Positions 22,201 through 64,000 of a stretch of 64,000 nt of DNA are shown one piece after another. The stretch's first letter is position 1. Each line of letters opens with the position of its first letter. The stretch spans positions 29,598,983-29,662,982 of the forward strand of contig NC_058337.1 in NCBI RefSeq assembly GCF_905475395.1. The letters run 5' to 3'. Source of the stretch: Chrysoperla carnea. Its lineage: Eukaryota; Arthropoda; Insecta; Neuroptera; Chrysopidae. The translations under genes and the position numbers were made by a program. A model generated the notes under the pieces. It was not told the origin of the DNA. It did no database searches and was given only the letters and a program-made list of their open reading frames with translations.

Positions 22201-25200
22201 TACATTAAAAGAATATTTTGCTCAAATTCATCATAGATACTTTAAGGAGGATTCCTCTTCAAATAATCGTGCTATGAACACACCAGTGGAAAAACCTGAA
22301 GATATTGAGAAAAATTTTGATGTGGTTCAATATGAAAAAGGTTCGTATTTACTTTTCAATTTCCAATGCAGCGGTGACGAAGAAGTGACGACTTCAAAGA
22401 AAGTATCTATTATTTATACGAAAGACAAATTCGAAATTTGGATAATGATTGATGTTATAAGGTGTTTAATTTTTCGGAGAGTGTCCTCATTTTAAAAGTA
22501 TCTAAAGGTGCTAAATAAAAATTATTATTTAATCAATATTTTTATCTAATCTCGCAAATAGCAAATCCAATTTCGATGGAGCTTTATCAGAAATGTTCAG
22601 TACTTCTTTAGCTCATTTTAGTATACTTTTTGTAATTTCTTTTTTTTTTTTGGTCTTAGTTTGGTAGTTATAAGCAAATATATTTATAATAAACTGTAAA
22701 ACAAATTATTATAAACTTACTCATGTACGTTATTATCTACGTTATTTACATCGCAAAAGGGAAACGCTGTTACGAAGTCTCAAGGGAAATAACGAAAAAG
22801 TAAATATCGAAAAACTAATTTTCCTAAATGCTAACTGGAACAATTGCCAATCGAGTGATATATACAAGTGAAACTTACAAAATTTAAAAAACCCCCGACA
22901 AGGTTTTCGGGGGTGGAACCCTAAACTCAACCTTGAAATATATTTATGAACACTCGACAACTACCTTTTTCCCTAGAGCCTTCTCCAAACTGAACCGATT
23001 TTAAAGATCATCATTGCCTATATTGCCTATTTTTTAGTTGTTCCGGGTACGGAACCCTAAACTCATTCTTGACATAGATAAGAACACTCTCCAAAAAATT
23101 ACCTTTCAAACGAAACAAAAAAATCAAAATCGGTTCATCCGGTTAGGCGCTTCGCTGCAGACAGACAGACGCACATAGCGGTCAAACTTATAACACCTCT
23201 TTTTTTTTGAATCGGGAGTTAAAAATAAATTATCATTGAATAATAAATACATAACGAGAGAAAAACCTGACAGTTGAACTGAGTGTTGAACATTACAAAC
23301 AGCATAAGCAAGCTTTTTTAAATTTTCTAGACTGTAACTTAATTATAAAAAATTTCAAAATCTTTATTTTTATCGTTTTTGTCTCTTTTGTTCTTAAACT
23401 TAATGTATTGCCGCATTTAAATGAATCATAATGTCAAAAAGTTTTTAAAGTTTCGGTTTTTTTACTTCTAAATTTTAAAAACACACAAATGAATTTGATA
23501 AACTATGTTTTTTTCTAATTTTTTCCGGTTTAAAAATCGTAATTTCGTTTGTAGCCTTTCGCTTTCGTAGAATTTTAAATATTTGAATAAAAGCACTAAA
23601 TATACATTAACGATACTTAAGGTAAAATATTTATATTTTATAGGTGCACAGTTATTATACATGTTGGAACATATTATTGGCAGTGAACTTTTTAAAAAGG
23701 GAGTTCAAAATTATGTTAAACGGAAGTAAGGGAGTATTTTTAATGAACGTTAAATTTAATTTATTTACAACTTAAATAATGTTTGTTTCATAGTCAACGA
23801 GCATCAGTAACACCAGACGATTTATGGGAAGCATTACAACAAATTATTGACAAAAATAAAGAATATCCAATTTTAGGAGGTAAAAAAGTAGCTGATATTG
23901 GAAATTCTTGGATAAGCAAAGCCGGTTACCCAGTTGTTCATGTTACTTTTGACGCAGATAAGAAAAAATTAAAATTCAGACAGGTGAGTAACGATTAGAA
24001 TTAGTAAAGATAAAGTAAAACAAGATTTTGTTGCAAGTAAATATGTTTTTAACATGGTAGCAAAATAATATTTCCTTGGATTAACAAAAATATTTTCTTG
24101 CCATGCTTCAGTTTTTAAGCAGACATATGATTAATTCAAGAGATGTTCCGACTAGTCGGTAAAGTTGACTATCCTGTCCCTTTCGTAGTCGGCGAACAGT
24201 CGGCAAAAACCGCCGACTACCAGGCTTCTTACTTTTTATGTATTTGTCAATAAAATATCCCTAACAGGAATTACATTTAAAGAAACATGAATTGTTAATT
24301 AACATTTTTATTGTAGAACAGGCTTACAAATTGGGTTGAATGTCGGTATTTTATATGGTTTGTTCATACTAGTATTTCCCTGAATTTTCCTGTCCACTAT
24401 GAGAAATAATCATTTGGCACTGATTATAGGTACTTGACTTTTCGGGAATCATTGCCCAATTGGCTAAAAAGAAATCCATACACGATATTTTCGAATGTTG
24501 TTGACATGATTAAATACAGATTGTAATTGAGCTCTATCATTTAAATGCATGAAGGAGGTGCACTCAGCCTCTGAAATTGAGTAGCTCATAAATGGAATTA
24601 TCAGCGGAAAGGTGGTAAAACACATACATGGAATCACAATGAGCTCTATACCCTAAGTGTGTACTTTGTGGACAGCCAATATAACCTTTCCTAACCTAAA
24701 CTAACCTAACCTAATCTAAAGCTGTTTCCTTCTCACAACTGCATATAACTTAAATGATTGTATGACAAGTCGTGATGCCAATCAAGACGCCATTATACTC
24801 TACACTTTTTTAGAAGTAAAGTTGAATTGGTTAATGAAAATGCACAAAATACATAATGTAAATAGTGTTTGTTTTTTAAATAATTTTCTTGGTGTAAATC
24901 AGATACTAATGTAATGTATAAACCAATTTTTCAAATTTAGGACAAAAGCCAATAGTAAGCTTGATGAACAGCTCTAGTGCAGTTTTTTATAGATGTAAAT
25001 GATGGCATACATATTCACAATGTACAATTACATTCTCTTGACTATACATTATATAATACAGAAACCACCATGCGTAAACCTGCGTTACCCATAGTCCAAC
25101 TTTCTCTCCCTCTCTAAATAACAAAAATTTATACAAAAAATTTTTTTAATGCACTCCTTAGAAGAAGAAAAATGATTTGATGAAAGTGTATCAAGTTTGA

Positions 25201-28200: not shown

Positions 28201-31200
28201 AGCGGGAAATAGATCACAATGGGCTAAATAGTCTAAGTGTCATCTATTCAGATTGACGCTGCAATCTAATTTAACCTTTCTTTCACCATAATAGAAATCT
28301 AGGGAAAAATGCTTTAAGTCTTTTCCTCTAACGTATATGATTAAAAAATTGCAATTCACATAAGCATTTGAAAATCTATCTATGATTTTTATACCATGCA
28401 TATATGAAATATATCATGGTATATTAAGTTTAGTCCCAAGTTTGTAACGCTTAAAAATATTGATACTACGAACAAGATTTTAGTATAGGTTTTCATAAAA
28501 TCACCTAATTAGAGCATCTGTCTGTCTGTTCGTCTGTCCGTCTGTTAAAACTCAAAAGTTCAAGCGTATTCAAGACTTAGGTCAGTCGGATTTTGGATCC
28601 GTAGGACCCCTTGCGTTAGAAATAGAACAAAAGTTTAAAAGTAAAAAATACTTCATATAAAAAAAAAAATTTTGTTTGAAACATGTTTTGTAAATCTCAC
28701 TGTTTACCCACGAGGGCGCAAATTAGGTACAAATTTTATAGTATGTATTATATAGAAATAACAGTTTTGAATGTGTGACTATCTAAGCTCGGATATTTTT
28801 TCTTTACTTAAGTGGCGTCAAAAAAAATACGATTGGGTCATCAACTCTGTCTATATATGGTATTTCAACAATTAAATCAATCAATTGTTTGTTTTCACTT
28901 GTTTTATTTTTATTTTAGAGCTTTGGAAGAGATAGAAGATAAAGAAGATAAATTTAAGTTTGTTAAACACATTTCAGAATTAAGTCCATTAATAGTCTAC
29001 GATAATATCGAAAACTTTAAAAAGTAAGTATTTATCTATTTAACTTGAAAGAGAGTCTTTTTCTTTTTAGAAATTATATGAGACAAATATGATTTAACAG
29101 TTGAAAAACAAACTTTTTTATTTTCAAATCTAATCATCGGTGTGCTGTAGTGAAAAAACACACTTTAGGCTAAGGGAACCATACGTCGGAAGTAAGAATA
29201 AATTTCAGCAAGTGGTCTTGGTGGTTTTGGCTGCAGGAATGATTCACTCATTTATTATTTATTTAATAATAATAAGATCCAAGCACTCAGCAATTCTAAA
29301 CTTTTGACTTGACTTTTGACCACCTAAATCGGTCATATTTACCACTGTGCGTCGCCGTAATTTTCTAATGTCCGTTTAAACTAAGCGTAAAAATAGTTAC
29401 ATCTGTTTGTGCTTTAATATCCATCTGATTATATGAAAATACATTTATTGAAAAAAAATTAAGAAACGTAGTTTTCCAATTTTATCAAGGATGATCAGTG
29501 AGAACTATAGGATTTTGAAATAAAATTTCCAAATTCACCACAATGTTTGGATCAATTTTTCATATGGTTACTTCGTCTTCAATGTGGTCATCATCAGTTA
29601 TCAAATTAGCTAATCGCAATTCATCTCCTGCAAGATATGTTACTCGTGGCTAATTTGGTGATTGTAACCGAAATTTGAACTAATAATGCAAAAAACTGAT
29701 TTCGTCCTAGTACCCAATTTGATAATTTTAAGCAACTTTGAGTTCATAAACAAAAATAAACAAGTTAAAAATTTGCCAACAGATTTTTCTTTCTCTAAAA
29801 AATATTAATTTATTCCAGGGCCATTACCGATGAAAAACAAGTTGTGGAGATTATGAAGATTCTTGCAGCTCGTGTTGGTACAGAAGAACAATTAGAGAAG
29901 TTAGAGAAGGTAATTAAACACAATTTTTCTTATAATTTTTCTTTATGAGAATTGTAAATTTATTAAAATGCGAATTATAAATTGTGAAAACTTCATATTC
30001 AGGCCAAGTTTAAAATCCTAAAATTTCTGGACAAATATTAATTAGGGAGGGACTATAAATAAAACTGTGTTAAGAGCAATGCTAGCTATTCGCCCGGACG
30101 GATTTCCATGTAACTTATAGCTCCGTTTAACATCAGATAAATTCATCAATCGTACGTTTAAGTCAACAATCATTGAAAAAAAGAGATAAAATGGACGTTT
30201 GGTTTAAATTTCGAATTCACCTCAATGGATAAATTATTTCGTTCATTGTAAAAGAAAATTATCTCCTTATAACTAAATTTTGAAATAAAGAGCTTTTTGC
30301 AAATTAATGCGTAGGGGACAAATGCAACTTATTTTCATTCTGTGTTTAATATTTTTTATGATTTTATTAAATATAAAAATAATGAGAATGTGCAGTAGTT
30401 TAAATAAAAGCAAAATACATAATTGGACATCTCAGTTTCTGCTCAGAGTTAAGCAATTTCAGTTTCTCTTGGTAAATGTAGCAGCTTCATTTCTGGGGTA
30501 ATAGTGCATTTATTGAAGCTGTTTGAAGTATGACCTAATATTTTATATTAGGCATGAGCGAGTTATTTTAAGCCAAAGTCACCATTGTTATAACTTTATT
30601 GAGTGTTATAAACTTTATTGTGTGTCTCTTTATTCAAGCTCGTATTGCTCATAGAGGAGGAAGCGAGACGGGTATACGACTTTTATACCATTCTCAGTTT
30701 CTCTAATAGTAATGAGATAGGTAGGAGAAAAAAATGTTGTCCCTCTGTCTTACTCGTATTTTAGGTTATCACTGGTTAGGTTATCACTGTCTTACTCGTA
30801 TTTTAAGTTAGGAGTCCGAGGGACTTCTCTGAGTCACATTTTCCCATGCCTGTTTTGTATTCTTGATATTCTTAAGCAAAAATTCCTATCCCTTTTATAT
30901 TATAAATGTGAAAGTAAGGTTGTTTGTAAGTTTGCTTGTTACGCTTTCACGCAACTACTGAACGGAATCTAGTGAAACTTTACAATAATATAGCTCAGTT
31001 TATAAATATATATTTAAAAAAAAAAATTAAATTTGCTTTGATTTTTCACTGCACCATCATTTTTAAAGCTAAATTAAAGATTTATTCACAAATGGTGACC
31101 GAGTAACAATTTATGGCCATTTGTTCTTATATACTTAATGAATTTATGACTATGTTACTTTTAAAAAAGATATAGAAAGCTGTACATAAATTTATATGTA

Positions 31201-32651: not shown

Positions 32652-32819
32652 GCTTCGTTCATCACACCAACATCGAATGACCGTGAACCACTAAAAAAAA
32701 GAGCTCTTTGTTAATTTTTTACGGACAAAAAAAAAAATATTTTTAGAATTTTGGAAATGAAACAACGTAACAAATAATCGTCTGACAAGCAGGTCAATTG
32801 TGATGATAAGTGCATTTAA

Positions 32820-33350
32820 TTATACCATGTACATGAAATATACCAAGGTTTACTAAGTTTAGTCCAAAGTTTGTAACGCTTAAAAATATTGATACTATGA
32901 ACAAAATTTTGGTATAGGTGTTCATAAAATCACCTAATTAGTCCATTTCCTGTCTGTCAGTCTGTCTGTCGTCTGTCCATCTGTCATCACGATAAATCAA
33001 AAACAAAAAGAGATATGAAGCTGAAATTTTTACAGCGTTCTTAGAACGTGAACAGTGAGGTCGAGTTCGTAAATGGGCAGCATAAGTTAATTGGATAAAG
33101 ATAGAACAAAAGGATGAATGTGAAAAATATTCCTTATAAAAAAATAAACAACTTTTATTTGAAACTTTTTTTCGTAAACATCACTGTTTAACCGTGAGAG
33201 CGCAAATTATGCGCAAATTGTATAGTATGTATTATATGAGAATATCAGTTATATATGTATGACATGTATATATGCGTAATGTGATAGAGTAATACTGTCT
33301 ATACATGTATTTCAACAATTAACTCAGTCAACTGTTTATTTTCACTTGTT
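32820..33350 (+). repeat. R1 repeat copy, intergenic
   Basis: Full-length R1 from TATACCATGTACATG to TTCACTTGTT, in the same orientation as the copy at 28390-28903, with a GTCTGTCTGTC tract near 32952-32985. Confidence 0.85.
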
Positions 33351-41200: not shown

Positions 41201-44200
41201 AACTTGAATTTTAATTTTAAATACAGTACAGTTTGTCAAAAGTGGTTAAAAACAAATTTGAAAATTAAAATTATATAATTTTTTTCATATATTTAGGGAA
41301 GATGGCGTGGTATATAATCATTCAATTGACCCATTTTCAAAAAAATTTGGTAGTCAAAGAGTTATTGCTCATGAATTATCACATCAGTGGTTTGGTAATT
41401 TGGTAACACCAGCATGGTGGACAGATTTATGGTTAAAGGAAGGTTTTGCATCATACTTCGAATACATTATCATGGACGCTGTAAGTTAGAAAAGAAAATG
41501 CAGACAGATATGCATTATTTTGTTAATTTCAAGAATATCGCCTATTGTAAACTTTTGCCAACTTCAGTTACAGGAAATTTAGTAAAATATGAACAAACAT
41601 TTGCGAAGCTCATATTGTATTATTATTATTTGTTTCAATCTCTCTATCAGTTTACTAGAGGCCTTGCAAACAAAATGTGAAAATTTAAAAAATTTTAAAG
41701 TTCTGAGTTAATAAATTAACTTTAAAAAAATCTCAAATTTAATAAGAAAAAGAAGAGTGAATAGTGAAAAGATCCAATTTCCTGCACAACCAGAAACATA
41801 TTTTCTTAGTGTACAAGTTTTATATAAAGGCAATTACCCAAAAAATTAAATTTTCATTTAACTTAAATTTTTAACTGATATTTTGTACAAAAAGTCCTTA
41901 GCCAAGCACCATGTAGCCATGCAAAGTTTGCAGACATGCAAAGTACCCTACTATCATTATAAAGTAGTGTTTTAAATCATTATATGTTACAGGAAAAGTC
42001 TCAAAAAATATTTGTAACAGTATTAAAAATAAGTAAACACAATTTTCCTCGGCAGTGTTTTATGCCTGCTGTGATTCAGTAAAAGTTGATTAAAGTAATT
42101 TAGTTCAAGTGTAATAATTATATCATATTCCTTGTTTTATAGCAAACGATAATCTACATTTCTATTAGTTTTTTTTTTTACGGTAAGGATTTACCGACAC
42201 TATCGTGTGTTTAGCGTGATTCTCATATTAAGATAATTTGGAGTAGATAATTAACGTAAACAGAATATTATCTAATTTTTTTGAGCAAAAATAAATAAAC
42301 TTTCCGTGTGATTGCTTTAATTCACTGATTCACGAGTTGGCCATACCTTTATTGGATCGCGTTAACTCTAGTCTGCAGATTTTTTGGCTTATAAGTTAAC
42401 CCTGTGCTTAAGTTCAATCACTAATTCTCAGGAAATCTGAGAAAAGCTCAAAAAACTAACATATAATTATATTAACTCCAAATTATATTAACGTGAGACT
42501 GAAGTCAAACACAAGATAGTGTCCGCAGAACCTTACCCTTTCTATGTTTAACTTTTCTATGTTTAAGTACTAGAATTATTTACGTACAGTAATTTTTAAT
42601 AGTTGTTTTAAACTTTTAATACACTTATTAATAATGGTTTTGCCTATCTTATTTGTTTTTATATTAGCTGGCAGATCGTTTCTTTGTAAAAAGTTCACTT
42701 TTACTATCTCAAGACAGAGAGAGTATACTTTACCCAGCTATAGTTAACTTTGACTAGTAAATGTTGATCAAATTTTAACAATTTTCTTAGGAAAAGTCAA
42801 CTCTTAGTGGAAAATTAACTTTTCCTGTAAGATATACATAAAAAAATTTAGAACATAAAATTCCAAATTCGCCCCAAATGACATAGTTTAAAATACCTAG
42901 AGTTCTCAAAATTATTTTTGATAAATTTACTTTTAATTAAAAACGTTTATTTAAGTTTGTATGTTAATCTTAGGCTGAACCAGGCGAATATGGCACATTA
43001 AATGAATATTTAGGTCAAGTTCACCACAAATTCTTTAAAAATGATTCTTCTAAAAATGGTCGTGCTATGGATAAATCTGTAGTAAAACCAGAAGATATTG
43101 AGAATAACTTTGATGTTGTTCAATATGAAAAAGGTTCGTACATACACTTTTTATTCCTAATACAGTCTTAGAAAAAAAGTTATTTAAAAAAAAACCCGAT
43201 TTAGAGTTAAATACAAACTGAAAAGAAAAAAGTCCAGCAGTTTACATAGCGACTTTAGCAGTTGGGACGGTGTAAATTTTAATGATTCCTGACTGTTAAA
43301 GTCGCTGTGTAAACTGGTGACTTGTTTTTTTTCTCAAGAGATTCAATCTCTAAAATTGAATCTCCTGAGAATGAATCCAAGTTTGAAATATTTTGAGATC
43401 AAATAAAAAAAAACTTTTATAATAATTATTTATTATAATTTAATATGTACTACCAAAAACCTAATATAAATTCAATTAATAATTTGTAACATTGATTGAA
43501 TAATACGCTTCATTTAATACTTAAATATCATTAATTTATAGGTGGGCAGTTGTTGCAAATGTTGGAAAATATTATTGGAACTGAACTATTTAGAAAAGGA
43601 ATTCAAAATTATGTTGAACTAAAGTAAGCACATTAAACGTTAAAATATTGTTTTTTATAAACTTAAAATACCTTTATCTGTTTTGCAGTAAATATAAATC
43701 AGTAACACCAGACAATTTATGGGTAGCATTACAAGAAACTATTGATAACTCTACATCCCCAAAAAAAATTTTGGCAGATAAAAAAATATCAGATATTGGA
43801 AAATCATGGAGTAAAGCTGGTTACCCAGTAATTCATGTTGCTATAGACAACGATAATAAAAAACTTAAATTTACCCAGGTGAATACATAAAACTTTCAAC
43901 TGAAGAATTTAACAATTTCAATTGTTTGAAGTAATCTCATAGTCACTCTTTTCAGTACTCTAATATCATAGACCGTGGACTAGAAAGGGTACTTTATAAA
44001 ATGATAAATACATACTTGAAACTTTGTGGGTGGCTTCCTTTTGACGAGTCATCCAAACTTCTCTCTACGACTTTTTTTGAAAACGTTGCGTTCTGAAATG
44101 CGTACAATTACAGCAGAGAATTTTTCGCGTTTTTTCAGAACGATAGCTTAAATATGACGTTATCGTGTTCATTAGAGCACGCAGCGCTTTCGAATAAAGT

Positions 44201-47200
44201 CGTAAAGATAACGTTGAGTTTGCAATAGTTTGGATATTTTATAACATACGTTTAATATTAGATTCTTGATTTGACAAAATGAATTAAGGGAAGCGTAGTA
44301 CAAATCGATATTATATTCAGTGTAGTTCAAAAGTAATAAATTTTTGAGGCATACCTTACCACTAAAAATACTAGTTTGGTAGAAGAACTTTTCTGTTGAA
44401 TTATTGTAATTTTTCAAGGTTGTTCAATTAGAGGTTCCTTACCAATTAAATGGATTCTGATAATTTTAAGAACATAACGTTATTATATTACCTATACATA
44501 AATAAAAGTAAAATATATATTACATAACTAGCTTGATACCCACCTGTTGCACTGGGTTCAAAAGAAAAGACCACCGCGTTATAGGCTTCACCTTCTTTGC
44601 TTTCACTTATCCCCCTTCCATAACACAGGAATAGGGACAGACATTGTTTTAGACAAGTAAAAGTATATGTACGATTTTCAGTTAAAAAAAAAAGTGAAAT
44701 AGTAGTAATTCGACTTGAGTATATCAGAAAAGATGGCCATAAATTGTATTTCGATCACAATTTTTACAGAAATCTTTAATTTATGCCTTAAAATGCTGTT
44801 CTAAGACCGTGCAGTGAAATTTCAAAGAATAAATTTAATTTTTTTTCAAATATATCTATATATTATATAATTCAAAGTTTTCAGTAGTTTTTGCGTGAAA
44901 GCGAACAATCTATGATATATTTGGATAAAATATTACTCTTATATCCTGTTATAAAAAAATACATGTCTCCCCTCATTTAAGTGGTAACATCTTTTTGACT
45001 GAATTGCAAAATTCGTGTCGAAATAATTCGATAAGTCATATTTGATTGTTGCTTTTTTTAGAAACTGTAGATTGCAGGATAAATTTCCAAAGAATCTACA
45101 CTAGCTTATCATGTAAAATCTCTAACATTTGAACCCTAATTGCGGGAACGTTTAATATGTCGGAATAATAGTGCTCGACACGCTAGACCAAAATTATGGA
45201 ACGAGTTGAGCATCTAATCATGTAGAACACTTCCATACCACTAATTTAATATTTTTAAATATTAGAAACGGTTCTTAACTGATTCGAAGAAAACATCTAG
45301 AAGTCGTTGGATAGTTCCAATTAATTTTATAACAGACAAAACTGAAACCAAAGACATCGGGAATACAGCCCCCACACATTGGCTTGAAGGGAAAACGCTA
45401 GAAGTTGACTCCGGAGACATCAAATTTGTGATTGCAAATAATGAACAGACAGGTAAGATATACTCTATTGTGGATATTCTCACTGCTTTCAAACGTCAAC
45501 TAAATTTCTTCATTCTGCACATTTCATTCATTCCACTTAAACAAAACTATATTTAAATAAATAAATAAAAAACTGTTTTAGGGTATTATCGAGTAAATTA
45601 TGATGATTCTAATTGGAAAGCAATTAGTGATCACTTAAACACAGAAGAAGAACCAGTTGTATCTACAGTAACTCAAGCTCAATTATTGGATGATGCGTTT
45701 ACATTTGCTGAAAATGGTGATCTGAAATATGAGGTTGCAATTGATTTAACACGATTTTTAGAAAATGTTGATGAATTTTTCCCTTGGAAATCAACTGCAG
45801 CTTATTTGATTAACTTATATGATAAAATTTCCATGACACCAACTTTAGAAAAATATCAAGTTAGTATCCTTTTGACTAAAAAACAAGTAAGAATAATTAA
45901 TTTTAAGAACAGTTTTTGTCTTTCAACTTTTTTGCTGTTGCTTGTAGTATTGATTTTTATGAGAAAACGTTTTTCTTATTTTTCTTCGTACTGTTGTAAT
46001 AACAAAACAAGTGAAAACAAACAATTGACTGAGTTAATAGTTGAAATACCATGCATAGACAATGTCGATTACTCTATCACATTACACATACATACATGTC
46101 ACACATACATAACTCATATTCCCTATCAATTAACATAACTGATATTCCCTATCCGTAAATTAGGCGTAAATTGTATAGTATGTATTATACAATTTACGCC
46201 TAATTTACGCCCTCGCGGGTAAACAGTGACGTTCACAAACAAATGTTTCAAACAAAAGTTGGTTATTTTTTTATAAGGAATATTTTTTACCTTTAAACTT
46301 TTGTTCTATCTTTAACGGTTTACACAAGATGGGTCCTACGGACCCACGACCCAATTTACCTATGTTACTCATTTACGAACTCGACCTCACTTTCTATGCC
46401 CTGAGTATGCTGTAAAAATTTAAGCTTGATATCCTTTTTCGTTTTTGAGTTATTGAGTTCACAGACGGACGGGCAACCGAAAATCGACTAATTAGGTGAT
46501 TTTATGAACACCTTAATTAATATTATTATGAATTAAAGTAAAAACGGATAACTTTCAATGTGAAGGGTGGGGGTGCAGTCAAAAATTTCCCGAGAAGAGA
46601 AAGAACTGTTTGTTATCAAGAATTTTTAATGGGACACCTGCAAAATTCCATAAAATTTTTTGAAGAAACAACTGTCTAATGTTTAAAAATTAACTTGAAA
46701 ATAAATTTTCCAAAGATAATAAATTATTTAGAGTTTTCCCATAATTTTTCCAAATTTTTAAATTAATATTTAATACCCTAAACAAATTATTTCATCTGAG
46801 AAACTCATTTTGACAAAATTACTACAATTTAAAAATGTCGCAGAAAGACCTATTTTCAGCGCTAAATTAAAATTATAAGTAATAGAGATAGACTCCCGGG
46901 AGTTTTTTATTGAAAAAGTCCTCTTCTTTAAGAATCTTTTTTTAAAAATCTTAAATATTAATATTTTATGAAATATTGGCGAATTTTTGTTTTCATCTTT
47001 AATCGTTGATAATTTTTGCAAATTTTTATGTGATGAAAAACGCTGGCACATTTTTCTAGACATCATTCCGAATCCAACGAGTTGACTAGACAATAAATTA
47101 TTTTCAAAAAAGCGTTGATTTATTCACTGTATTAAATTTTCTTTGAATAAAAAATAGTATTATTTTTAAGAGACATCGATAAGTTTTAGTTAATAACTAG

Positions 47201-50200: not shown

Positions 50201-53096
50201 ATCCCATTGGATTTTTTACCAAACAGTTCACATAAAATATTAACCGTTTTTTTACATTGCATCAATTATTAGTATGCAAACAAAAATCACTGGTAAAATC
50301 ATTTAAATTATCACATTCAAGGCCCGCCACATAATGGGAGATCACTTTATCTGTTATAAATTTACACACAAAATAGGGATTATTTTAACGTTTACAAATG
50401 GGATCATTTTACCCGTAATGACATATTTGAATGTCGTCATAAAAACCGACCTTAAAATTAATTAAACGCCTATCAAAATGTGTTATAATATTATTAAGTC
50501 AAAAGAATAATCTTACTACCAATAACTTATGCTCGAAGACAATGATTCTATAGATGCAAAGGTGCTCTATAATTGATTGCAGAACTCTCGACTTCCTAAA
50601 TAAGCTTATAAAGACGACCGGAAAAGTTATTTACCAAATTTCTATTTGAGATCTAGTTTCCTAGATAATTAAAACCAAATCGTTCAATATATTTATCCAA
50701 TGACAGAGCACTTAGAATTAGAAGCATGTCTTTAACGTTGCATTCAATAATGATAACTATTTCATTTTCTTAAATTTTTAATAGATCCAACCCAGTAACC
50801 TATGTCTATTATTATATTTCATGGAAATTACTGGGTGCGATTTAATAAAAATTTGAAAGTGAGTTAGCAGTAATTATTGTCTTATTGTTGTTGTCTTTAT
50901 CGTTATATTTAATTATCTAATTATCTATCTCACTTTTTCCAATTTTTATTAAACTCCACGCGGTCACGATAAAGACATCCTTCTATTTCTAAGTGTTCTA
51001 TCATTGGATAAATATATCAATTGATTTGGTTCATAGTCTCGGTAATTAGGCTTCAGCTCGAAATTTGGAAAAGTGCTTTTTCGTTCGTCTTTATAAGCTT
51101 ATTTAGGAAATTACGGTTTCTGTAGTCAATTATAACCAAAACATATTTCTTTATTGCAGCGCTGTTACCGATGAAGACGAAATTCACAAGATTATGGAAA
51201 TCCTCGCAGTTCGTATTGGTACAGAAGATCAACTACAAAAATTAACAGAGGTAACTTAACACATTTTTTTTTTAATCGTAAATCATACTTACAAAAGAAT
51301 CTAACAGTCTTTATAGGCCGCTCCAAATAGCTGAAAAAGCGATTTCATGAACTTATTCAAAGGCAAAAAAAAACTTGAAAAAAAGGAAGCTTTTGCCATC
51401 TAGTTTACGACCTTACTAACGCGCAGTCCAAGTTCGCTGGGGGTGCGATAATTAACGCTATATGTATACATAAAAAAAAATATTTTTGGCCAATATCTCG
51501 TAAGCCATCAACTTTATAAAAAAAAATTTCAAACAAAAATCTGTTATAAAATCAATTAGCTTCTAAAAACAAATTTTTTCAAATAATAGTTGTCGGAATT
51601 TTTTTTCCCTAAAAAAATGAAGAGTGAAACTTTTCTTCATCAAATTGATGGTTTCCGAGATATTGGCCAAAAATCGTTTTTTTATGTATATATAGCGTTA
51701 ATTATCGCAACCCCAGCTTTTCCGAGACTTTGCGTTAGAAGGGTCTTAAACTAGATGCCGAAACCTTCCTCTTTTTTTAGTTTTTTTTTTTCATGAAACA
51801 AGAAAATATTTATCACTATGATTTTTAAGAATGTATGAGTACGGAAGTGGGGGCACAAATTTAAAAAATATATATTTTCAATTTTGATGATAAATAATAT
51901 TATAACTTGACGATATAAGACGAAAAGTAAGAATAAAATTTTTTGATATCTGGCGTAATTTTCAAAATATCTAAAATACCTGACTTTTTACGCCCTTAAC
52001 ACGCTCTAAAAAAAAAATTTCGGTTTGATTGCTCTTTTCGTTTTTGAGAAATCGTGATGACAGACGGACAGGCGGCAGACAGACAGACAGACAACCGGAA
52101 ATGGACTAATTAGATGATTTTATGAACACCTATACCAAAATTTTGTTCACAGCATCAATATTTTTAAGCGTTACCAACTTGAGACTAAACTTAGTATACA
52201 TAGTAAGGTAATTTCATAAACATGTTATAAAAATTTCAACCCGGAATCTACCCTGCTCTTACATCCTTTATATGGATGGAGACACACGGATTTTTTCTTT
52301 TCTATGCCATTGCTTATATGTATACTTTCTATTAAAAAGTTTTTTCTTTAAAATTGTTTTCATCGTTTCCAAGTCAAAATTATCAAAAACTTTCAAAATA
52401 TGTCTTTTTTTGAGATTCCTCCATAAGAGTCAATGTATTTATCGACTTTCAATGACTTTTTTCTTAAAAATTTGTATGGATGCCTATGCTGAAATTATAC
52501 CTATACCTATACTTTAACCACATATTCTTTGAGTATAAGTCTGCCTATAACAAAATTTTGAGCCTTTAAATCAAGCATTGTTGTCATGCTCATACATCCT
52601 TAAGCAGTCAAATGTTTACTTCTTATAAGAACATCCACAGCCTTATTGTCATAGTATAGAGTGTTTATTAGTAAAAGATTGCAACTAAAGGCTACAATAA
52701 AAAAAAAAAACATTTTTTTAAAATATCATCTACGCCTTGTACTGTACACAAACTTTGCCAAAAAGAATCAACGTATAATTATATTATTTATTTCAGTTAA
52801 ACCAGGAAGAATATAAAGACTTATTGAAATTAGCAGGAGAAAATCAGAAATGGAACAAAGATAACGAAGATTTTCATAATTGGGTTAAAGAGAATGTAGA
52901 TCCTTCAGATCCGTCAGAATCAACTCCAGGGGTGACTCCAGAGCCTCCACCAGAATCAACTCCAGGGGTGACTCCACAGCCTCCACCAGAATCAACTCCA
53001 GGGGAGACTCCAGAGCCTCCACCAGCTGGTGCATTAAGTGTTACAATATGTTTAAGTATGTTGGTATCTACAGTAATTATTGCATTTTTAATGTAG
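38264..53096 (+). CDS. Gene B: membrane aminopeptidase N-like (M1), complete
   Basis: Close paralogue of gene A, with the same expected activity and location. Coding exons: 38266-38741, 40317-40796, 41297-41480, 42974-43133, 43542-43623, 43689-43878, 45266-45452, 45582-45859, 47268-47605, 49398-49493, 51160-51250, 52797-53096; all in phase, 953 residues. Exons 3, 4, 5, 6, 8, 9 and 11 have exactly the lengths of those in A. Seen: signal peptide, [13 protein letters not shown] at 344-348 with Glu367, catalytic Tyr431 in VVQYEKGG, and a C-terminal hydrophobic GPI-type tail almost identical to A. Odd points: the exopeptidase motif is GGMEN (308-312) instead of GAMEN, and the stalk holds three 12-residue repeats (ESTPG-TP-PPP type). 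An AG splice site lies 2 nt before the ATG. Patches of exons 3, 8, 9 and 12 match A even at silent positions. AATAAA at 53152-53157. An active enzyme is likely since all zinc ligands and Tyr are kept. Confidence 0.95.
39230..40220. mobile_element. Large fold-back element in gene B intron 1, arms about 330 bp
   Basis: AAAATCAGAAACATTTCAG, AGGGTGAAATAGGGGATG, GTATGAAAATATATATAAT and GAGTTCACTAC occur on the left and, in inverted order, on the right. A third partial copy of the right-arm inner part lies at about 39845-39935. The element fills most of the 1,575-bp intron. No ORF inside. Confidence 0.9.
40927..41140. mobile_element. Short TIR element in gene B intron 2
   Basis: A 214-bp relative of the element at 11227-12273, in opposite orientation. 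Shared terminal regions include TGTGGATGTCACT, AACGCCATAC and GCATAAGTAATATTATAG (inverted). The right end is TTTTACCGTG; the left end CACGACAAG is worn. Confidence 0.75.
42180..42538. mobile_element. Fold-back element in gene B intron 3
   Basis: ACGGTAAGGATTTACCGACACTATC..GTGTTT at the left pairs with AAACACAAGATAGTGTCCGCAG..CCTTACCC at the right. Further pairing involves TTAATATAATTTGGAGT-type blocks. Arms are about 75 bp. Confidence 0.75.
43194..43336. mobile_element. Small fold-back element in gene B intron 4
   Basis: GTTTACATAGCGACTTTA and TAAAGTCGCTGTGTAAAC form the arms, outside them AAAAGAAAAAAGTCC and a T-rich complement. A sister copy lies at 53278-53462, just after gene B. Confidence 0.75.
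44003..44230 (+). repeat. R3 copy in gene B intron 6
   Basis: Begins ACTTGAAACTTTGTGGGTGG, then CCAAACTTCTCTCTACGAC, matching the inverted ends of the element at 7446-8190, and continues into its inner part (TAGCTTAAATATGACGTTAT). Confidence 0.55.
44528..44900 (-). mobile_element. Helitron-like element in gene B intron 6
   Basis: On the minus strand the 3' end has the hairpin ACCCAGTGCAACAGGTGGGT, then ATCAAGCTAG at 44528 and T. A GTAGTTTTTGCGTGAAAGCG block near 44885 corresponds to the 5' part of the copy at 30889-31305. The exact 5' end is unclear. Confidence 0.5.
46007..46514 (-). repeat. R1 repeat copy in gene B intron 8
   Basis: Starts ACAAGTGAAAACAAACAATT and runs to CTAATTAGGTGATTTTATGAACACC, where the copy stops short of the TACCATG end. 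It contains a near-perfect palindrome (46162-46201) around TATACAATTTACGCC. Confidence 0.85.
48230..49148. mobile_element. Largest fold-back element, gene B intron 9, arms about 450 bp
   Basis: The left arm starts CTGAACGTAAAAGTG and GGATAACCCGGTA; the right arm ends TACCGGGTTATCC and CACTTTTACGCTCAGG. Inner pairs include GCTTGCTCAACAACAT / ATGTTGTTGAGTAAGC and AACGCGATTTTTACG-type blocks. The turn is near 48700 (CACAACG..CGTTGTG). Arms are clearly diverged, so the element is not brand new. Confidence 0.9.
49801..50095 (+). mobile_element. SINE-A, full-length, with 9-bp target duplication
   Basis: The tRNA-like head has an A-box TAGCTCAGTTGG and B-box GGTTCGATTCC (49867-49877), followed by a body shared with 24541-24720 and the tail AACCTAACCTA. 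ATATTGGCA flanks both sides (49792-49800 and 50096-50104), a perfect target duplication. The head cannot form a tRNA acceptor stem, so it is a SINE promoter, not a tRNA gene. It lies in gene B intron 10, in sense orientation. Confidence 0.93.
50567..51136. mobile_element. Fold-back element in gene B intron 10, arms about 230 bp
   Basis: TCCTAAATAAGCTTATAAAGACGA on the left recurs inverted near 51090-51113. ATATATTTATCCAATGA and AGAGCACTTAGAA-type blocks are likewise inverted. The turn is near 50850. The right end lies 23 bp from exon 11. Confidence 0.85.
51311..51797. mobile_element. Fold-back element in gene B intron 11
   Basis: Arms share AAAAAAGGAAG, CATCTAGTTTA, CGATAATTAACGCTATATGTA and AATATTTTTGGCCAATATCTCG in inverted order. 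Its arm sequence is also found at about 55475-55620, so the family is dispersed. Confidence 0.85.
51950..52232 (-). repeat. R1 repeat, partial copy in gene B intron 11
   Basis: Retains the CAGACAGACAGACAACCGG tract, CTAATTAGATGATTTTATGA, CCTATACCAAAATTTTGTTC and the terminal CATGTTATAA. The ACAAGTG end is missing. Confidence 0.75.
52917..53024 (+). repeat. Coding 36-bp repeat x3 (stalk of gene B)
   Basis: Three in-frame 36-bp units (52917, 52953, 52989) encode [24 protein letters not shown] and [12 protein letters not shown]. They form the extended Pro/Thr stalk between the peptidase body and the GPI signal; Thr/Ser residues are likely O-glycosylation sites. Gene A has a stalk in the same place but of a different repeat type. 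Confidence 0.95.
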
Positions 53097-56868: not shown

Positions 56869-59800
56869 AATGAATAGTGTAAACTGGAATTGGAATAACT
56901 TTCTTGTGTTACTTATTTTCTGCATTATTTTACCATTATCCAGTGCAAATGATATCAATAAATTATCAACAAATGATGTAACACTTAATTATCAATTATC
57001 GGACAGTACGATTCCTAAACATTATGTAATTCATATACAACCTTTCCTCGATCCAACCCATGGCGAAAAATATTTAACGTTCGATGGTAATGTTGAGATC
57101 ACATTAGTGGCACAATATCCGACAAATATGATTGAATTAAATGTTAAAAATTTAAAAATTGATAAATGTAAAACAAATTTAACACAACTGAATGAAGAAA
57201 TACCAATAAAAATACAAAAAGAAGAATTACAGAAAGATGTTGAAAAATATGTGATTACAACGGAGGATTATTTACAAAAAGGCATTAATTATGTTCTAAA
57301 ATTATCATATGTGGGCACATTAAATAACACTGATTTTAAAGGATTTTACATCACATCATATACAATTAATAGCACCAAAATGTAAGTTTCAAAATTTTAA
57401 ATTATTTACTCTATGCAGAATAAACATAGGCGTACCGAGGGACCTCCTTCCCTGGAGCTCGACTTACAATTGATTTAATTAACCGCTTAGCACTCGCGGT
57501 GATGACAGATTAACTCACACGTTCTATAAATGCATCAAATATTTCGCTTATTAAATATTGTTTAACTTTGTAAATCATAACCTCTACATAATTTTATGTA
57601 AATTTATTTTTTATTGAATTAGCTAATTAAAAAGAGTTTGATTACGTGATTATTGAATGATGTTTGAGAGTGAAAATATCAGAGCAGAGTAATAATCTTA
57701 ATAGTTAAATTCATGTTAACTAATTTCAACAAATTTATATCACAATTTTTTTAATTTACTAAAACTAATATTATATTAAACTAACAAAAGTACACGAACA
57801 AGCCCGAAAAGATAATATTTTTTTGTCTATACCTTTACTCTTGTGATGAGAGAAATTCTCACAAATTTCGTTATCATTTGTTTTTTCACGTCGTATAAGT
57901 AAATAAAGATACAAACCAAACATGCATGCATACACACATAACTGATATTCCCATATAATACATACTATATAACTTGGGCCTTATTTGCGCTCTCACAAAT
58001 AAACAGTGATGTTTACGAAAAAAGTTGTTCATTTTTTTATAAGAAACATTTTTTACAATTAAACTTTTATTCTATCTCTAACGGTTTACAAAATGGGTCC
58101 TACGGATCCAAGACCCAATTGACCTATGAAGCTCATTTACGAACTCAACCTCAGGCGGACAGACGGGCAGACAACCGAAAATTGGCCAATTGGGTGATTT
58201 TATGAACATCTATACCAAAATTTTGTTCGTATCGTCAATATTTTTAAGCGCTGCAAACTTGGGACTAAACTTAGTATACCTTGATATATTTCATATACAT
58301 GGTATAAAAACTGTAGATAGGTTGAAAAAATCTGAAAAATTTATGATTAATTTCGAAAATAGATAAAATTAATGAAGAGAGGAAAAGTTTTAACCATATA
58401 ATACCATTTGAAAAATAAAAGTTATTTGTGTTTTAACTGGAGCGTGAGCAAAATGCGAGTGCTAACGGGTTAATTGAAAATGTTTTTTTTATCAAAATAC
58501 CTTGTAATTTGTGATATTCTGATGGCAAAAGTCTCTATTTTGAATTATTTGCTTGGGCCAGAAGGTGGTTAGGTACCTCCTGGAGAACATTACAAATATT
58601 ATTTTACTTTTGATAATTTATAACCCTCGTATTTTAGAGAATTTGCTACAACAATGTTTTTTGATGGAGCAAGAAGGGTGATTCCAAGCTACGATGAAAG
58701 TGGAATACGAGCCACCTACGAAATTTCAATAAGAGCTCATAAAAGCTTTCAAACAATTATTTCAAACACAAATATTAAAGATGTTAAAACGTAAGATTTT
58801 CTTTAAATCGTATAGTACAAATATTGTTTTATCCAGGCCAAATTTCTTTTAGTGAAGGAAATTGGACTGTAACAAGTTTTGAGAAGACAAAAGTCTCTTT
58901 TCCAATATATTTGTTAGCATTTGTGGTGTCAAATTTAGAAAAAGTATCGAACAATAAAAGTTCAATGAGTGTGTATACTCAACCAAAATATGTTTCATGC
59001 GCAAATCGAAGTTTAGTCTTTGGCGAAAAAGTGATCCAAGAGATTAATACTTTCCTACTGGGTGATTTAGATTACTTTATTTATATGGATAAATTGGATC
59101 AAGTTGGGATTCCACAATTTTCGTATGGTGCTATGGAAAATTGGGGTCTAGTTATTTCGAAGTAAGTGTACACAAAATACACATTTCAATCCTGTACAGT
59201 CTATATGTTTCATCAGAGAAGTCCCCAAACAAAAATATTTATATTAAATCTATTTTAAAATCGATCGCTCTAATTGATAATTTAGGGAAAGTTCACTCTT
59301 TGTTAAAAATTAAAAATGATTATGCTCGTATATTTTATTTTTTGTTTTGTTTGAAAGGTAATTTAATGGATAGGGTTCTTAGCTATATTTCAAGTGCGTG
59401 TTTAGGATTCCGTACCCGGAACAATTAAAATATTGGCGATGATCATCAAAATCGGTTCAGTTTGAAGAAGTTTTTAAGGAAAAAGGTAATTTAATGGAAA
59501 GTGTTCTTAGATACGTTTCAAGTTTAAGTTTAGGGTTCCTTTACATGAACGCTCCTTTACAACTTTGCGTCGCTTCGAAACATATCATTGATCGACAATA
59601 TCTAAAGATGGGCTAAACAGCCCCGCTCTCTGTACATCGTGACATAGAGATCGATGCCCACAGAGTTTTGGAAAGGTTTTCCGGTACCTCGCAGAATTAC
59701 CTTATTAAAAATTATTAAAATTATAATTGCGGGTATTATAATACATTTGCCATAAAAATTTGAATTCGATTGACCGTCTCTGATTCGAGATAAATTTAAT

Positions 59801-62800
59801 AAAAGTTCGAAAAATTAACATGGAGAGCACAGGTGTGGTTTTGCTTTTAACACGTTGTTTTAATTTTAGAAAAAATTAAAAATTATTATGCACAAAAAAG
59901 TAAAAAAATAACGATAATGTAATGTAGTTACAATTATTGTTATTTTTGGAGTCGGTGTCAGGCAAGCAACAATTATGACAGGACAGTTTGCTGCATTCTG
60001 CATTAACTTGGCTGACCCCGATTCCAAAAATAACAATAATTGTAACTACGGTCGGTTTTTATTTGTTAAAAGTTTCTTTGTTTTGAGATTTTTAGTGAAA
60101 CACTAACACTAATGAAGTACACTAATTTGTCACTAAAAAAGAATCATCGAAATCGATTGGCGAGATATTGAGTTGTTCGTCCATATGTTACTCAAAGTTA
60201 ATCAATTTTATTGTTGAACAGAAATGACTTTAGTTAGAGTATTTGTGGTTGAAGGGAGATGTCTGTTATAATGCAGGACTTGGTATACAATATTTATTAA
60301 GAAAAATCTTTGCGCGGTGCATTAGAGCTAAAAGTAACAAATTATTTGACTATAAAAGTGTCATTTTTTATCGTGCATGTAGCCCAAAACATTTTTATGA
60401 AGACTACAGCCTTAATATAGAACAGTAAGTCTCAAGCATTAGATACAATTTCAAGAAAATCCGAGCAACTTATCACCAAATAATTTTTTTTAAAGAAAAT
60501 AGCCTGTAGGTAGTTACATGTAGTGAACATTTTTCTTATGAAATATTTGTACAGAGAGCAAAAATTATTATGGGATGAGAAAACATCAACGACTTTGGAG
60601 AAAGAATCTGTCTATTTAACAATAACTCATGAATTTTCACATCAGTGGTTTGGAAATTTAGTGTCACCTTCATGGTGGAAATATGCTTGGTTGAGTGAAA
60701 GTTTTGCTACGTACCTTCAATATGTAGTAGCGGACGAAGTAAGTTTTTTTTCTTGGACATTAATCGATGGGCTCTGTACGCCTATCGTATAAATAGACCA
60801 AGATAATTTCAATTTGCGATTCTTTGTTCTCTTTGCAAATAGAGAAACACAGAGATTTCACTCTGTGCTCGTCACTTTTGATAATTAATTCTTTATTTCT
60901 GTTCTACAGATATCAGTTCAATAACGACGTTTCTATACATTTTCTACTCTTTGAGTTCTAGAAGAAATCCGTTAAAAAAATTCTTACAAAAAAAAAATAT
61001 CAGTTAACTAACCGATCAGTTTGAGATCTTTTGGATATAATTATATGAAGCTAATTACATGATTTAATAATCCATTTAAAAAGTACTCGATTAAATGTTC
61101 TACTTTTCGGAAAAATAACGTGCTATCTTCTAAAATATTGACATAGACAACCAATAGAGAATTTGCATTAATTTTTTTTAACCACAAATTCATACATAAA
61201 TGAAAGAATATTCATTTTGTTATAATAATAATAAAATGAATAATAAGAGCGTAAAATATCCCAACTACAGGGCAAAGGCCTCCCCTAAAGATTTCCATTG
61301 GGATCTGTCGGCTTCAAATTTCCTCCACTGATGTCCCGCAAACTGTCCAATTTCATCCCTACATCTTTTATTTGAATTACTTCTCCCTCGCTTGTTGCCA
61401 TTTGGTGTCCATACAGTCCAGCGTTCGTCTGTCATCTTGGCTATGTGGCGAGCCCATAAAACCTCTTTAGTTTTTTAAATTGTAACATTTTTTTTCTCTG
61501 ATCCATTTTGTTATTAATTATTAATAAAAAAGAGTTATATTTTTGAATTTGAAAAAAACGGTAGTGTCGTATTTACTCCCGTGGAGGCTATGAGCCAATC
61601 GAAATCACAATATCTTTACATTTTTCAGTTTGTTTTCATGGAAAGTTACATTTAATTAGACATATCATTATGCATTTTATTTTAACATTTCTCCCTGTAA
61701 TGGCATTGTTAAAACGATGTGTTGACGTCACTGGCGTTTGAATTTATTGTTTAAAAAAATCATTTCCAATTGTAAAAAATTTCATGAAAAATCTTTTTCT
61801 TAGTAATTTAAAAAAATAAAAAATAAAATTAAAAAACATGCAACTTCTCTATTTGTACTTTAGTTTAAGCAGTAGCTAAGCGAACCGCCTCCAAGTTCAC
61901 ACTTGTACACAAAGTTATTACGCTTTTAGTGGCAAAAATTTGTTTTAACTCAAATCAATATACGAATCTATTCGAATTAAAAATATATATTTGTTCACTT
62001 TTTAGGCAATAAAAAAGTTAGATGAACCTTTCTACGAAAATGATTGGCGATTAAATGAACATTTTGCAATTCATGTGCGTCAAGTTGTATTTAATTTTGA
62101 TAGCTTAACATCCAGTCATCCAATGACTCATTTTGTTGAAACACCAAAAGAATTTGTTAGTTTGTTCGATATGATAATTTACCAAAAAGGTAAAATGAAA
62201 TAAATATATCTATTTTTACTTTGCAAATTCATTAATAAAAACATTTTATTGCTTGCAGGAGCATCCGTTCTTTGGATGATGGAACATATTCTATCAAGGG
62301 TAGTTTTACAACGTGGTTTAAATTTGTATTTAAAAACAAAGTAAATATTAATATTATCATTGTACTACTAGGGGAGACCGGGTATAAAAGTTGTATATTT
62401 TGTATGAATCACAAAGACTTAAAAAAAATTCCAAGTTGTGACTTTCGACCACGTTAGCGGATCGAAAGTAACACGAAAACAAGCGAAAACAAACAATGGA
62501 CTGAGTTAATTGTTGAAATACCATGCATAAATAGTGTTGATAATACTCTATCACATTGCACAAACATATACAATTTATATAATACATACTATACAATTTA
62601 CGCCTAATTTGCGCCCTCACGGGTGTTTGATGTTTACAAAAAAATGTTTCAAACAAAAGTTGTTTATATTTTGATAAGGAACATTTTTTACATTTAAACT
62701 TTTGTTCTATCTCTAACGGTTTACAAGATGGGTCCTTTGGACCCATAGGTCAAGACCCAATTGACCAATGTTGCTCATTTACGAACTCGACCTCACTTTT

Positions 62801-64000
62801 TACGTACTGAGTACGCTGTAAAAATTTCAGCTTGATATCTTTTATCGTTTTTTAGTTATCGTGTCCACAGACGGACGGACGGACGGACGGACAACCGGAA
62901 ATGGACTAATTAGATGATTCTAAGAACACCTATACCAAAATTTTTTCGTAGCATCAATATTTTTAAGTGTTACAAACTTTGGACTTAACTTAATATACTA
63001 TGTATATTTCATATATACATGGTATAATAACAGGATAAAGGGGTTTGAAACAAATATGCTATGATATAATAAATTCACAAATGACTTATTAGAAAGTTTA
63101 TACCAACAAGAAAAATAAACATTTGCATTCAAAAATTATATATTTTATGAAAACAAATCAATATTATTAACTCCTCGAAAAAAATTTTCTTAGTTTAAGT
63201 AATGACTATTATTATATGATAATCATATATTCTAATCAGAGTATTCAATATCAGTCTTTTACTTGTGTATTTGCGAACTTGCCACTTGTGTAAGTAACAT
63301 GTTACTTGTATACCCACAAAACTATGTTACTTTTGTATCCTACCACATTTTTGGTAAAACAATAAAGATAACCTTAAAACGGATGGTGGTAGGCAAAACG
63401 ATTAAAACACTGGACAATCAATCTAATCAAGAAATAATATGCAAACATTCAGGTTAATATAAGGATAATAATACGACGTAAATATCAAAAAAAGAACTTC
63501 TTAAATCTTCCTTTTAATTTGTAAAATCCGTATTGTCCTCTAGCAAAACCTGACAGCGCGGGGTGCGCCCTTCGACGGATTGAAAGTAAGAAGAGTACCA
63601 ACGGCTATCACTTGACGGCAGTGAAGCGGTTTTTTGACTATTAGATAAACCTACAGAGCATTTGTTACTTTCGACCCGCCGTTACTTTTAAACCCGGTCT
63701 CCCTAATAATAAATTCAATTTTACAGTCAACTATCTTCAGGAACACCAAATAAATTATGGGATGCGTTGCAAGAAGCACATGAACAATATTCTCTAGAAA
63801 ACCCAGAAGCTGCATCGAAGCTAGGACGATTGAGTGTTCATGATATTGGTAATTCATGGTCCTTACAACCTGGTTACCCAATGGTGACTGTTACAAAGGT
63901 CAAGAAGATTGTTAAATTGGAGCAGAAACGATTCTTAACCGATTCAAGAAATGAATCGGACACAGTTTACTTAATTCCAATTAATTACTTATTAGGAAGC
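56869..64000 (+). CDS. Gene C: divergent aminopeptidase N-like (M1), 3' end beyond window
   Basis: Third paralogue, clearly more distant. Visible coding exons: 56870-57381, 58638-58790, 58853-59161, 60555-60738, 62006-62189, 62259-62340, 63727-64000 (continues); 566 codons, all junctions in phase. Seen: signal peptide (hydrophobic residues about 11-25), GAMEN at 314-318, HEFSH at 350-354 with Glu373, catalytic Tyr445 in MIIYQKGA, and the DIGNSW-like and RFLTDSR segments found in A and B. The exons of 184 and 82 bp match A/B in length. It differs from A/B by an extra intron (58791-58852) splitting their exon 2, and by lacking their intron 6, since LEQKRFL is coded without a break. The N-terminal FPCFDEP motif is replaced by [13 protein letters not shown] splice site lies 1 nt before the ATG. 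The catalytic set is complete, so an active enzyme with altered specificity is likely. Stalk and anchor cannot be seen. Confidence 0.9.
57915..58311 (-). repeat. R1 repeat copy in gene C intron 1
   Basis: Contains TTTGCGCTCTCAC, GGGTCCTACGGATCC, the AGACGGGCAGACAACCG tract, CCTATACC-like TCTATACCAAAATTTTG and the end ATACATGGTATAA. The ACAAGTG end is truncated. Confidence 0.8.
59335..59540 (-). repeat. R2 repeat, partial, in gene C intron 3
   Basis: Two internal R2 units (GAAAGGTAATTTAATGGA, GTTCTTAGCTATATTTCAAG, AATATTGGCGATGATC), without the terminal regions. Confidence 0.75.
59922..60045. mobile_element. Short inverted-repeat element in gene C intron 3
   Basis: GTAGTTACAATTATTGTTAT..GGAGTCGG at the left and CCGATTCC..ATAACAATAATTGTAACTAC at the right are nearly perfect inverted copies of about 33 bp around an 60-bp core (GACAGGACAGTTTGCTGC). 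Confidence 0.8.
61265..61475 (-). mobile_element. RTE-type non-LTR retrotransposon, C-terminal ORF fragment
   Basis: On the minus strand about 65 codons end in TAG (61265-61267). They read [14 protein letters not shown], then a basic Lys/Arg-rich stretch, [12 protein letters not shown], and [20 protein letters not shown] at the very end. This order (GH-ARM-DxRW, GRP-like basic stretch, RW-DDI, DR--W--LGEAF) is the known C-terminal signature of reverse transcriptases of RTE-like elements. It is a 5'-truncated relic in gene C intron 4, antisense to the gene. Confidence 0.8.
62371..63704. mobile_element. TIR transposon filling gene C intron 6
   Basis: GGGGAGACCGGGTATAAAAGT at 62371 and ACTTTTAAACCCGGTCTCCC ending 63703 are inverted copies, both next to TA (ACTA left, TAAT right). 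Subterminal ACTTTCGA / TCGAAAGTAAC motifs repeat on both sides. It begins 30 bp after exon 6 and ends 22 bp before exon 7. An R1 copy is nested inside. No transposase is recognisable. Confidence 0.8.
62479..63029 (-). repeat. R1 repeat copy nested in the intron-6 transposon
   Basis: Full-length R1 (551 bp) from ACAAGCGAAAACAAACAATG to ATACATGGTATAAT, with five consecutive GGAC units near 62875-62892. Since it interrupts the TIR element, it is the younger insertion. Confidence 0.85.

Follow-up and report, generated by a model that had tools for sequence, protein, structure and literature searches.

A TIR transposon with a nested R1 repeat occupies nearly all of intron 6 in an M1 aminopeptidase gene, with its 3' edge in a candidate branch motif

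The window (the whole stretch of 64,000 nucleotides analysed here) holds three tandem aminopeptidase genes of family M1, referred to as A, B and C. Their sixth introns share the same exon position and phase and are all of the GT–AG type, as was found on re-reading the coordinates, and the lengths given in the first-pass annotation hold: 68 bp in A (23726–23793), 65 bp in B (43624–43688) and 1,386 bp in C (62341–63726). The two gene C features from which the analysis departs are as follows.

60555..60738, + strand: gene C exon with the HEFSHQW...E zinc-protease motif; PF01433 (Peptidase_M1), E 2.7e-21; ends placed by eye
62341..63726, + strand: gene C intron 6, 1,386 bp, GT...AG; both flanking exons homologous to those of A and B, with equal phase

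Gene C keeps the M1 motifs before intron 6 and, after it, open exons homologous to those of A and B that continue beyond the window, an arrangement that fits continued splicing of this intron. Among aminopeptidase structures, the best solved relative of the zinc-protease exon is 4wz9 (AGAP004809-PA), which we take to be a mosquito protein; the exon piece at 63728–63997, searched alone, matched no Pfam family. The donor GTAA supplies an in-frame TAA in all three genes, so that retention of intron 6 would lead to an immediate stop in each of them, and the transposon therefore adds no such cost. The segment upstream of the element (61995–62371) is single-copy in the assembly, which thus holds no second allele of this intron. 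Another gene C intron carries a separate short inverted-repeat stretch at 59923–60050, with about TAGTTACAATTATTGTTATTTTTGGA at its ends.

What lengthens intron 6 in gene C is a DNA element with terminal inverted repeats (TIRs), itself interrupted by a second repeat, R1. Its parts, and those of the original intron, are listed below.

62341..62370, + strand: 30-nt remnant of the original intron on the donor side; its terminal TA (62369–62370) is one copy of the duplication
62371..63703, no strand assigned: copy of the TIR DNA transposon with nested R1; longest overlapping stop-to-stop frame 130 codons
62371..62391, + strand: 5' TIR, GGGGAGACCGGGTATAAAAGT, from the arm match and the genome pattern search
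62476..63027 (approximate ends), + strand: nested R1 copy; relatives of the TIR element are uninterrupted there
63684..63703, − strand: 3' TIR, with a CCC terminus here and a fourth C in 14/25 both-ended copies
63703..63707, + strand: CTAAT, candidate branch motif over the transposon/host junction, from sequence only; putative branch A 63706, 20 nt upstream of the acceptor
63704..63726, + strand: 23-nt remnant of the original intron on the acceptor side; its initial TA is the second copy of the duplication

The two TIR arms (62372–62391 and 63684–63703) agree at 19 of 20 positions. This match exceeds chance, since in 400 first-order Markov resamplings of the intron, searched within 60 nt of both intron ends, the best arm match was 17 and the mean 12.1. 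Of the 25 copies with both ends recognised, 20 have a fourth G and 14 have a fourth C; the window copy has four G and three C. The 130-codon frame, the longest stop-to-stop frame overlapping the element, extends past its 5' end, and with no longer frame the element is probably non-autonomous. Inside it, direct repeats of a TIR-like motif starting GTTACTT occur at 63299–63340 and 63679–63695 and are possibly subterminal transposase-binding repeats. The 20-base TIR pattern had no match in viral or prokaryote contigs, a literature search with an 11-base TIR string returned no transposon paper by title, and Rfam gave nothing at gathering score on 62000–64000.

Relatives of the element are dispersed through the 559-Mb assembly. 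With the right arm as query, 112 first-look candidates were obtained and 40 were scored, comprising the window copy and 39 others that were 77–88% identical over their main pieces. Moreover, the TIR pattern with at most three mismatches occurred at 92 assembly sites, including the two ends of the window copy, vs none for the reversed control. A lack of matching TIR elements elsewhere had been named in the first-pass annotation as grounds for abandoning its reading; the 39 scored copies and 92 TIR sites dispose of that concern. When R1 was left out of the query, 22 of the 29 other fetched copies gave a single alignment that started no later than position 46 and reached at least position 731 of the 779 bases. 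The window copy differs from the family majority by a K2P distance of 0.077, inside the range of 22 others (0.044–0.084), and is therefore not conspicuously recent.

The ends of these relatives also served to settle the target-site duplication, since the low-complexity flank was not decisive alone. Thirty loci were fetched, of which 25 had both ends recognised and five were dropped for a missing recognised end. With one odd base tolerated at the 5' end and as many as two additional C at the 3' end, we found TA adjoining the 5' end in 22/25, the 3' end in 19/25 and both in 16/25, with the window copy among the 16; TA was missing on at least one side in the other nine. On these counts, the flanking TA in 16 of 25 copies identifies the target duplication of the family as TA. 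Longer duplications at the gene C site matched imperfectly (3 bp, 2/3; 5 bp, 4/5; 8 bp, 6/8) and were set aside in favour of the TA given by the family ends.

The view of the first-pass annotation that a transposon makes up almost the whole of the intron is borne out by relatives sharing the ends and the TA duplication of the element and by the nested R1, with small corrections at the 3' edge. Its start for the element (62371) and its 30-nt donor-side remnant stand; the end moves from 63704 to 63703 because 63704–63705 belongs to the duplication as its second TA, the acceptor-side remnant is 23 nt (63704–63726) rather than 22, and the empty intron, put at about 52 bp, comes to 51 bp once TA is collapsed.

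Further observations concern TIR elements elsewhere. Another copy, at locus L047, has a target reading AACTAATAA that resembles the gene C target TACTAATAA. The TIR pattern search also turned up a related family starting TAGGGGAGACTGGGTTTGAAAGTCAC; three of its sites share 26 identical bases. Two loci of this family, L061 and L062 (G000:C6:1928084-1933084 and 6594465-6599465), hold copies that are 96% identical across about their first 670 bases; in the 5 kb of each, a second end was not recognised and no stop-to-stop frame exceeded 137 codons.

R1 is a separate and abundant repeat: the whole-element query returned 7,463 first-look candidates, and among the 40 scored, the places besides the window copy matched only about positions 106–660, the R1 part. 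None of the 29 relatives fetched for the TIR element is interrupted at the R1 insertion point (shown in the alignment for 22, after exclusion of two long copies and of those lacking either end), so that R1 is a later insertion nested in the TIR element, as had been proposed from the window sequence. Its left end, AACAAGTG, was exact in 21 of 29 fetched copies and its right end, GGTATAA, in 26. Comparison of R1 here with uninterrupted family sequence made no clear target duplication evident, and a palindrome lies at the R1 end directly before GGTATAA; these two features recall, we presume, Helitron-like elements. A 32-base R1 string had no match in viral or prokaryote contigs, and a literature search with a 19-base string yielded neither a report nor a name. 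Further R1 copies in the window lie at 28386–28919, 32819–33350, 45996–46513, 51978–52233 and 57953–58334, and another at L063 (3580–4001). At L051 (about 2105–2709), R1 sits inside a TIR-element copy at an insertion point that differs from that in gene C.

The position of the element within the intron bears on the 3' splicing signals. The acceptor side keeps only 23 non-element bases, so a branch point at the usual distance would sit at or inside the element edge, in agreement with the first-pass annotation. The TA-collapsed 51-bp intron has 11 TA dinucleotides and, 20 nt from the acceptor, a TACTAAT; the ancestral empty intron is expected to show TACTAATAATAAATTC, or a close variant, at the insertion place. 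It was the TA within TACTAAT that the insertion used, splitting the motif. At the present junction CTAAT is found, its C being the last base of the element and its TAAT lying on the host side, and this C|TAAT is the sole match to yUnAy in the last 70 nt of the filled intron. The consensus yUnAy is that of human branch sites (Gao et al. 2008, cited in PMC7969005), and its use here is an assumption that may not hold for this species. Of 18 acceptors in the three genes, picked by eye on exon homology and counting that of gene C intron 6, 16 had a yUnAy match 14–40 nt upstream, vs 54% of 20,000 random window positions (binomial P 0.002; 0.003 for 15/17 when gene C intron 6 is left out). CTAAY was found at 2/18 acceptors, one of them that of gene C intron 6, vs 4.9% of random positions. 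Evidence against reading the junction as a branch site came from a hand-made matrix of seven bases, which showed no enrichment (71 of 300 shuffles scored as high), lent no support to a clear species consensus and, in the filled intron, placed TTTTAAA, which lies in the element at 35 nt from the acceptor, above the junction motif, its top hit being unaffected by the last base of the element. The same matrix gave the reconstructed empty intron 12.5, above all 18 present introns (highest 11.8). We infer from the junction sequence that CTAAT serves as the branch point.

The inverted repeats may also matter for the distance between donor and acceptor. In partition-function folding of the 1,386-nt RNA, a thermodynamic prediction to be weighed lightly, the 20 TIR pairs had a mean probability of 0.909, with one pair, the mismatch, at 0, vs 0 to 0.128 in six controls in which the letters of the 5' TIR were permuted. 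The arms are thus predicted to pair in the pre-mRNA, and the stem would, as a prediction only, place the 30-nt and 23-nt remnants next to each other. Just outside the stem lies the presumed branch A, with a predicted unpaired probability of only 0.36.

On the whole, we consider it likely that a TIR element invaded an intron of ~51 bp, that R1 nested in it later, that CTAAT was remade, that the arms loop and that splicing was kept. A transposon, probably non-autonomous and duplicating TA, would have entered the ~51-bp ancestral intron of a functional-looking M1 aminopeptidase gene, and R1 would then have entered the transposon, both insertions having the support of other genomic copies. The first would have struck the TA of TACTAAT, 20 nt upstream of the acceptor. 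Since the last base of the element is C and the TA was duplicated, the downstream junction would have come to read CTAAT again, and the 3' signals would thereby have remained together with their spacing unchanged; the donor lies 30 nt ahead of the element. The paired arms would loop out 1.3 kb and leave donor and acceptor near their old distance, again by prediction only. Given preserved 3' signals and the predicted loop, gene C intron 6 is probably still spliced, and the element would appear to be a tolerated passenger without new function.

An alternative with the same insertion history is that the current branch point lies inside the transposon, for instance at the A of TTTTAAA (about 63691), so that the element would have supplied a wholly new branch site. 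The top rank of TTTTAAA by the hand-made matrix in the filled intron speaks for it, as does the predicted fold, where this A coincides with the sole mismatched position of the TIR stem and so would be a bulged A; but TTTTAAA is not a match to yUnAy and the neighbours of its A are predicted to be paired in that stem, and we regard this alternative as unlikely. That the insertion instead harms splicing, with gene C transcripts reduced or aberrant, would accord with the depletion of transposons near exons in mammalian introns (PMC3088655). Nevertheless, open exons persist on both sides of intron 6, the copy is not conspicuously recent by its K2P distance, and the stop that retention would bring is already present in A, B and C and hence is not new, so that we give harm to splicing a low probability.

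Transposons within introns are commonplace. Introners create a new intron and carry their own splice sites. Transposons reportedly drive intron gain in this form (PMC9860276). The gene C element resembles introners in that a transposon is nearly the whole intron, and intron gain of this kind could in principle have produced a long, transposon-made intron in place of an invaded short one. We consider such an origin extremely improbable, since A and B have the intron at the equal position without the element, and the gene C intron, which predates the element, uses its own donor and acceptor, both outside it; these same two facts exclude the element from the introners. It has instead the features of a class II TIR transposon, with inverted repeats matching at 19/20 positions, dispersed copies with shared ends and a TA duplication. 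Non-autonomous TIR elements with TA target duplication are among the features of the Tc1/mariner superfamily, although TA duplication is not exclusive to it. The gene C element resembles such elements in its TIRs, TA duplication, lack of a long frame and dozens of genomic relatives, but differs in its ends, GGGGAGACCGGG, and no transposase has been linked to it.

The preferred account, invasion of a short intron with CTAAT remade, describes an event that is in itself ordinary, in which the fit is unusually tight: the exons are 30 and 23 nt away from the element edges, and the insertion itself appears to have remade the branch-like motif that it split. Mammalian introns are depleted of transposons near exons, the zone given for near full-length DNA elements >1,000 bp being 2,000 bp (PMC3088655, Table 1). 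The gene C element lies inside that zone, but it lies close to both exons together, at 30 and 23 nt, has its 3' edge in a branch-like motif and comes from a non-mammal. Among the papers found on insertions and branch points, PMC7969005 and PMC3596301 included, no title describes such a case. The gene C intron thus offers a natural test of the capacity of a minimal intron, which has taken up 1.3 kb at 30 nt from its donor and 23 nt from its acceptor. A possible, if somewhat doubtful, extension is that the insertion was safe for splicing by construction and took the last tolerated position of a minimal intron, the terminal C and the TA having rebuilt the motif and the stem keeping the distance. 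If this were general, survival within branch motifs would be commoner for TA-duplicating elements with a terminal C or T than for those with a terminal A or G, a prediction about which transposon ends branch motifs tolerate that can be counted genome-wide.
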